Shown here one piece after another: positions 17,616 through 43,820 of a stretch of DNA of 43,919 bases (position 1 is its first letter; the number at the start of each line of letters is the position of its first letter). The notes under the pieces are model-generated. The model was not told the DNA's origin. It saw only the letters and a program-made list of their open reading frames with translations, and ran no database searches. Source of the DNA: Sulfobacillus benefaciens (GTDB lineage: Bacteria; Bacillota; Sulfobacillia; Sulfobacillales; Sulfobacillaceae); assembly GCA_003023725.1 (NCBI GenBank), contig PXYT01000028.1, positions 1 to 43,919 on the forward strand. Reading direction: 5' to 3'. The translations under genes were made by a program, and so were the position numbers.

Positions 17616-17675
17616 ACGGAATTCCAGAATAGCTGGACCTCCATCTCCCGTTTCCGCGAACAGAAAGATATGATC

Positions 17676-17815
17676 CTCAAAGGCAGGTCTCCTGACTTTT
17701 TCGTAACCGGAGTGTTGATATCCTGGCAACGAAATCACAGTGGCGGGACCGCTCAGGATTTTCACCTGATTCCCTATTCTCTTGCCGCAGGCAAGCACCT
17801 TTGTGGCTAAATTAA
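17676..17815 (-). promoter_or_regulatory. Cobalamin (B12) riboswitch
   Basis: The minus strand contains the conserved pieces in the right order. They are AAAGGTGCTTGCC at the 5' side, then GGGAATCAGGTGAAAATCC, then GCGGTCCCGCCACTGTGA (the B12 box region), and finally GTCAGGAGACCTGCC closing the 3' side. This is the AdoCbl-sensing element that commonly controls B12 synthesis and transport genes in bacteria. With the terminator downstream it should reduce transcription of the whole sirC-cbiD operon when cobalamin is present. Confidence 0.96.
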
Positions 17816-17999
17816 ATGTTGATACCGTTTCGCCTATCATATCATGCTTTGGACAACCGGAGTACGTTCCGAGAAAAATTACAACCACATAGGCAATCAT
17901 ATAACAAAGGGATAATGCAGAATAATCCATGGCACAAACCCGAATCGGGTGTTGCCGGGAAACCCGCCAGATATCTTGGCAATCTTTCTTTAAATTACA

Positions 18000-42858: not shown

Positions 42859-43007
42859 AACCGTTGAATGGAAAATCGGCTGCCGAATTTATCCCGACTG
42901 TTGCACCTGCCCTACTTTCTCGATGCTCTGGCCTAGTTACCGATTTTTCGCGGGATGATTCATGAGCTCATGGGAATTGCTACCCCCCCGAAATATTGTC
43001 TACCCCC

Positions 43008-43042
43008 TTGAATCATTTGATTTTCAATGGGACAATGAAAAT
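43008..43042 (+). promoter_or_regulatory. Promoter and overlapping palindrome upstream of the peroxiredoxin
   Basis: TTGAAT (43008-43013) and GACAAT (43031-43036) are 17 bases apart and read toward the peroxiredoxin. A 23-base imperfect palindrome with arms ATTTTCA (43020-43026) and TGAAAAT (43036-43042) spans the -10 box. Its position suggests a repressor operator; it does not match the PerR or Fur consensus closely. Confidence 0.45.
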
Positions 43043-43081
43043 GAAAATCACTATGATCTCATTTACCAAAGGAGCGGTGTC

Positions 43082-43531
43082 ATGCAGTTAGGAGAAATGG
43101 CCCCTGAAATCCGGGTTCAGGCAACCAATGGATCCACCTTTTCGTCCCGTGAACAAACTGCAAACGGTCCCCTCATCGTAGCTTTCTTCCCATTGGCCTT
43201 TACCCCCGGCTGAATTCAAGAACTGTCCACTTGGAGAGGGGACTTCACAAAGATTCAAGAGGCCGGGGCATCGCTTATTGCCTTGAGCACTGACCAGACA
43301 TTTGCTCAGCGTGTGTTTAAGGAATCGCTGGGAGGATTACCCTATGAGCTCGGATCGGATTGGATGCGAACGGTTTCCCAGGCTTATGGCGTTTATGACG
43401 CCAAGGGAGGATTTGCCCAGCGTTCCGTCTTTGTCCTCGACCGCGAACATCGGCTGATCTTCCAAAACACGGCGTTCAAAGCGGGAAACCGCGAACATTA
43501 TGACGAAGTGCTAAGCGCCTTAACCCGGTAA
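43082..43531 (+). CDS. Peroxiredoxin with in-frame TGA at the catalytic position (probable selenoprotein)
   Basis: A 149-residue thioredoxin-fold peroxiredoxin of the AhpE/AhpC-TSA type, which reduces hydrogen peroxide or organic hydroperoxides. The N-terminal half reads MQLGEMAPEIRVQATNG and LIVAFFPLAFTPG. Codon 44 is then TGA (43211-43213), and the same frame continues as IQELSTWRGDFTKIQEAGAS through SVFVLDREHRL to TAA at 43531. The peroxiredoxin motif PxxxTxxC reads P37-LAF-T41-PG-TGA44, so the TGA replaces exactly the peroxidatic cysteine; the conserved arginine is R114. There is no cysteine anywhere else in the protein. Together with a hairpin 11 bases downstream, this fits selenocysteine insertion, as known for PrxU of Eubacterium acidaminophilum. 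The ATG at 43082 has AAAGGAGCGG upstream. The alternative is a pseudogene with one nonsense change at the active site. Confidence 0.82.
43225..43243 (+). promoter_or_regulatory. SECIS-like hairpin after the in-frame TGA
   Basis: Eleven bases after the TGA, GTCCACTT (43225-43232) can pair with GAGGGGAC (43236-43243) around a GGA loop: four pairs, one A/G mismatch, then three more including a T-G. Bacterial SECIS elements are short hairpins within the coding region just after the UGA, with G in the first two loop positions about 16-37 bases from the UGA; here the loop begins 20 bases after it. The stem is short and was folded by eye. Confidence 0.5.
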
Positions 43532-43820
43532 AACCATTCAGGTAATGCCGGGACGTCCCATACAACATTGCATCCTCGCAATAGACTCTAGAACAGTTCA
43601 TGGTCCTCTTGTGTAAATGCACTGTCCTCAGTTATCAGTGTAAGAGGAACCTGCCAAAAGGTCACGGACGGCTACGCCTCACTCCCCGTCCGTGATTGTT
43701 GTCGTCATCGGGTCCACTTCCCATTCTCATCAAACGCTTCTAGGGAGCGAAAACTTCTACGGCTATTATCCCGTGTGGGAAAAGATACGCCTCACCCAGA
43801 ACAAACCCTTTCGAATGGCT
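43532..43820. other. Right-end spacer after the peroxiredoxin
   Basis: No confident gene. A plus frame (about 43700-43831) reads SENFYGYYPVWEKIRLTQNK without a convincing start and ends inside the terminal repeat; it may be a fragment belonging to the repeat's host element. The only clear feature is the terminator hairpin at 43662-43702. Confidence 0.4.
43662..43702 (+). terminator. Terminator after the peroxiredoxin
   Basis: TCACGGACGG (43662-43671) and CCGTCCGTGA (43686-43695) form a perfect 10-bp stem with a 14-base loop, followed by TTGTTGT. It lies about 130 bases after the TAA at 43531, as expected if the whole frame across the TGA is one transcription unit. Confidence 0.7.

Follow-up and report, generated by a model that had tools for sequence, protein, structure and literature searches.

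A short TGA-containing peroxiredoxin gene of Sulfobacillus benefaciens as a predicted one-selenocysteine enzyme

Described selenocysteine peroxiredoxins and the Sulfobacillus gene

Selenocysteine (Sec)-containing peroxiredoxins with a TxxU motif were first reported from Eubacterium acidaminophilum (Soehling 2001, as cited in PMC13188914), with 12 sequences known in 2006 (PMC1794560) and 78 organisms in 2016 (PMC5029168), and they are included among the families covered by a 2026 review (PMC13188914). As for Sulfobacillus, Sec formate dehydrogenases were noted in 2014 in all genomes of the genus studied (PMC4378227), and a Sec-containing PrxU of S. thermotolerans is mentioned in a proteomic study from 2020 (PMC7409299). 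The latter seems to correspond to a protein of 178 amino acids (BXT84_15685) and, judging by that length, is apparently another locus. Hence, the use of Sec in a Sulfobacillus-type host, which a preliminary description of the DNA considered here had regarded as notable, is already on record in these two studies.

The window analyzed here, i.e., the whole 43,919-nucleotide stretch of S. benefaciens DNA that constitutes contig 77 of a 4.56 Mb genome assembly (155 contigs, 98% complete), carries on its forward strand a peroxiredoxin gene (43082–43531) of 149 codons plus a TAA, with one in-frame TGA. Translation of the frame places the ATG at 43082, the TAA at 43529–43531 and the TGA at codon 44 (43211–43213, forward strand), and with the TGA taken as a residue the product (MQLGEMAPEI...FFPLAFTPGUIQELSTWRGD...ALTR) has 149 residues. 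The TGA lies exactly on the C of PxxxTxxC, yielding P37-L-A-F-T41-P-G-U44 with Sec44 as the peroxidatic residue of a PxxxTxxU motif, and the frame has no Cys codon. Thus, both the placement of a single TGA at the peroxidatic cysteine of a complete peroxiredoxin frame and the absence of any other cysteine, as first described, were recovered exactly on re-translation. With C placed at codon 44, the full frame matches the Pfam AhpC-TSA (7e-23) and Redoxin models, the PF00578 score of 81 bits against the 26 needed establishing the presence of an AhpC/TSA domain. Taken with the evidence below, the gene almost certainly encodes a one-Sec peroxiredoxin in which UGA44 is decoded as selenocysteine under the direction of a hairpin, and which would operate by a selenolate cycle with an outside thiol. 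Selenoprotein genes of this type are liable to be split or discarded by standard gene callers.

The predicted structural model (pLDDT 97) has a complete peroxiredoxin fold, for which AhpE (Z 23.8), Bcp4 (23.6) and eukaryotic Prx1 (23.6) are tied as fold matches, the best solved relatives by sequence being the Bcp4/AhpE group. The 1-Cys AhpE of Mycobacterium tuberculosis (PDB 1xxu, 4xih) is alike in size and in its single peroxidatic residue, and superimposes on the predicted model with an rmsd of 1.7 over 146 aligned positions; R114 of the window protein is probably the counterpart of AhpE R116, whereas the two proteins differ in the presence of Sec instead of Cys and share 26% identity. Bcp4 of Sulfolobus solfataricus (PDB 3hjp) is the top match by both sequence and Foldseek, but is not a selenoprotein and is only ~30% identical. 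With the TxxU peroxiredoxin of E. acidaminophilum the window gene has in common the AhpC/TSA fold family, the PxxxTxxU motif and a bacterial SECIS directly downstream. In contrast, the PrxU model of NCBI (NF040737, peroxi_PrxU) spans 233 positions, against a window protein of 149 amino acids with no other Cys, and scores 47.2 bits against a cut-off of 270. By these sequence comparisons, the gene is a short one-residue Bcp/AhpE-like TxxU peroxiredoxin rather than a member of NCBI's PrxU family, so that the earlier PrxU label captured a family resemblance but not the actual membership.

Upstream of the gene, a ribosome-binding site, AGGAG, was read by eye at 43070–43074 (forward strand), 7 nt 5' of the ATG, and a weak promoter-like site, GGGACA-17-TATGAT, occupies 43029–43057 on the same strand with a match of 9/12. 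Three such promoter-like matches occur in the region as against 1.0 ± 1.1 expected, and two genomes from the same genus show conservation of the segment from approximately 43004 to 43082. A terminator scan of the peroxiredoxin region returned no downstream terminator; a G+C-rich inverted repeat with a loop of ~14 nt is visible by eye near 43660–43700. Of the signals previously thought to frame the unit, therefore, the ribosome site stands, the promoter is a weak match and the terminator was not recovered by the scan. The upstream gene order common to three same-genus copies comprises a helicase of the UvrD type and an NAD-dependent DNA ligase, both encoded on the opposite strand; hence, the peroxiredoxin gene appears to stand alone. 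Also upstream on the other strand, the window encodes a small protein of the Trp-repressor family (PF01371; 42162–42458, minus strand), and farther away it contains a cobalamin riboswitch (17665–17817, minus strand; 93.7 bits).

Conservation of the TGA across relatives

A search of 150 related genomes recovered 21 further homologues from the same family and order, which are 43–90% identical to the window protein. Each of the 22/22 copies from the order (the window included) has a single TGA, always at the corresponding codon, a pattern that excludes chance, and no Cys version was seen within the order at the search threshold across those 150 genomes. Inspection of these close relatives for further disruptions, which had been proposed as a potential refutation, found none in the homologues of the order. 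In the alignment of the 22 homologues, P37, T41, U44 and R114 are invariant and there is no conserved Cys; the window protein itself lacks a resolving cysteine, as do the AhpE-type enzymes. Comparisons with two same-genus copies gave dN/dS values of 0.050 and 0.046 for the region 3' of the TGA, and of 0.075 and 0.108 for the region 5' of it; the value of ~0.05 after the TGA reflects strong purifying selection, and therefore implies that the downstream codons are translated and selected.

These observations bear directly on the possibility that the gene is a pseudogene or the product of a sequencing error, with the TGA being a disabled or misread TGC/TGT. The fragmented state of the assembly, with its 155 contigs, would be in keeping with such an artifact; however, the identical TGA recurs across the order, in 22 different assemblies, as well as in isolates of Bacillaceae, the frame contains no other lesion, and the low dN/dS after the TGA is contrary to decay. 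Hence, we consider this explanation to have a negligible probability.

Beyond the order, the TGA form is found in a phyletically wide range of named genomes: in addition to S. benefaciens and S. harzensis DSM 109850, these include Alkalicoccus, Neobacillus, Bacillus, Methylomirabilota, Acidobacteria and others. Sec-containing peroxiredoxins do exist, as stated in the preliminary description, but their confinement there to a few anaerobic Firmicutes understates this spread. In Gemmatimonadota and a few other lineages a C is aligned to U44, and the proposed comparison over codon 44 thus bore out the expectation of a match between the U and the Cys of homologues in other phyla. The Sec and Cys labels show strong clustering in a 52-sequence tree, where the relatives of the window gene form an all-Sec Bacillota clade (support 100/98) that also includes one record labeled Actinomycetes.

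The tRNA-Sec was detected in 13/14 of the probed genomes with the TGA form, in one of these 13 (63% complete) with a score just under the family cut-off; Bacillaceae and their relatives that possess both the TGA peroxiredoxin and tRNA-Sec include Alkalicoccus, Alkalihalobacillus, Neobacillus and Bacillus sp. (L068–L070, L072–L074, L077). As tRNA-Sec also occurs in two Cys-form genomes, its presence does not separate the two forms. Likewise, little can be learned from correlating SelA with the gene across the order, given that 36/42 genomes possess SelA. In the one exception among the 14 genomes with the TGA form (G036, 97% complete; gene L045), searches found neither SelA nor tRNA-Sec; as SelA is present in its sister genome (G037), this is likely to be an assembly gap, the alternative being a recent loss of the trait.

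Decoding machinery, the downstream hairpin and Trp51

In the S. benefaciens genome itself, profile searches recovered selA (556 bits, above the cut-off), selB (358 bits) and selD (358 bits), the last with its own TGA in the motif TSKSGUGC, along with a tRNA-Sec with the anticodon UCA (68.9 bits), on which ARAGORN agrees. All four genes whose presence had been proposed as a check, selA, selB, selC and selD, are accordingly encoded in the genome. Further, two genes for the formate dehydrogenase alpha subunit, fdhA, carry a TGA in CNRTUHAPS (L135, contig C81; L136, contig C46), while a third copy (L134) has none. A second Sec peroxiredoxin, of the Prx6-like type, contains a TGA in HPADFTPVU (L004; 1261–1905, minus strand of contig C92). 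In relatives, the Prx6-like gene is a mosaic: 8 close copies, along with several additional ones, carry the TGA, and others from the same family lack the stop, which may allow Sec/Cys exchange to be traced. Altogether, a TGA occupies a recognized Sec site in at least five genes of the genome (the window peroxiredoxin, selD, two fdhA and the Prx6-like gene), a lower bound as it stems from targeted searches only.

That homologues have Cys at the aligned position might be taken to favor the UGA being read as some other residue, for instance, as Cys by a variant tRNA or as Trp by a changed code. Against this, selA, selB and selD are present, the UCA tRNA is an ordinary tRNA-Sec, and the TGA-containing genes encode the classical selenoproteins SelD, FdhA and Prx. 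Moreover, UGA is the stop of 10/24 large open reading frames in the window, which argues against its global reassignment. This makes such a reading highly improbable.

The reading of the UGA as Sec is further supported by a SECIS-like hairpin, GTCC-A-CTT / GGAG loop / AGGGGAC, at 43225–43243 on the forward strand. Its 7-bp stem, which contains one bulge, starts 11 nt downstream of the UGA, and its loop lies at 19 nt with GG in first place. The published bacterial SECIS model (PMC13188914) specifies a loop of 3–9 nt with a G in the first two places, a stem of 4–16 bp and a loop 16–37 nt from the UGA, and the window hairpin conforms to it in every respect. Pairing was counted clade by clade, a pooled count of two clades being blurred by their differing registers: in the clade of the window gene, 49/49 cells are paired, with one pair changed on both sides from G-C to A-U, and one sequence of the Bacillaceae group has two further compensated pairs. 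In the three other clades the hairpin occurs in slightly different registers, with the GG at the same loop place in all four clades. This conservation is in part a matter of shared descent, since the compared sequences are related. Relative to synonymous recodings, the mean z is −1.3 for the Sec genes versus −0.2 at the matching place of Cys homologues (p 0.002); the window hairpin alone has a z of −1.4 that is not significant (p 0.10), as is often the case for single sequences, and in four sequences of the f2 group the hairpin is no better than random.

The GG with which the SECIS loop starts belongs to the TGG codon of Trp51 (43232–43234, forward strand). Trp51 is present in 27/27 named sequences of the Sec clade and in 0/42 Cys homologues, which mostly have Phe. 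This invariance in the Sec clade, together with the absence from the compared Cys homologues, constitutes a modest new point, and suggests that the protein pays for the RNA signal through the link of Trp51 to the loop GG. A broader proposal, that we offer tentatively and hold to be somewhat doubtful as a whole, is that in the Bacillota clade the Trp51 TGG might supply the loop GG for SelB, with Trp51 being retained to serve the RNA and not the enzyme, and that acid-loving bacteria exposed to oxygen might use the enzyme as a one-Sec peroxidase dependent on an outside thiol.

Release factor 2 is a competitor at bacterial Sec codons, and UGA44 could conceivably double as a regulatory stop, such that a shortage of selenium would yield a truncated product and the full enzyme would be made only under plentiful supply. 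In line with this, the genome has no Cys copy of the window gene, even though it has Cys peroxiredoxins of other types (L002, L003). Nevertheless, nothing points to a function of its own for a 43-residue product, and the conservation spans the whole frame; hence, a regulatory role of this kind appears unlikely. The preferred explanation, in which UGA44 specifies Sec, draws jointly upon the sel genes, the TGA conservation, dN/dS, the hairpin and the Cys alignment, and the central proposal of the preliminary description is upheld to that extent.

Predicted catalytic cycle and biological implications

In the proposed mechanism, selenocysteine would be inserted at UGA44 by SelB and the Sec-tRNA(UCA), with the adjacent downstream hairpin as the directing signal. 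The Sec44 selenolate, held in place by P37, T41 and R114, would then attack H2O2 or organic peroxides and be converted to a selenenic acid. As the protein has no other Cys, the selenenic acid must be reduced back by an outside thiol, presumably a low-molecular-weight or thioredoxin-type one. We infer from the above lines of evidence that Sec insertion and peroxide reduction actually take place. A search for viral relatives of the peroxiredoxin found none.

Sulfobacillaceae and their relatives are known from acid, sulfide-mineral habitats, and the presence of at least two Sec peroxiredoxins in this genome would fit a selenium-based peroxide defence, besides being a further indication that the use of selenocysteine extends beyond anaerobes. 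The cultured S. harzensis DSM 109850 has the same gene, which makes the prediction directly testable.
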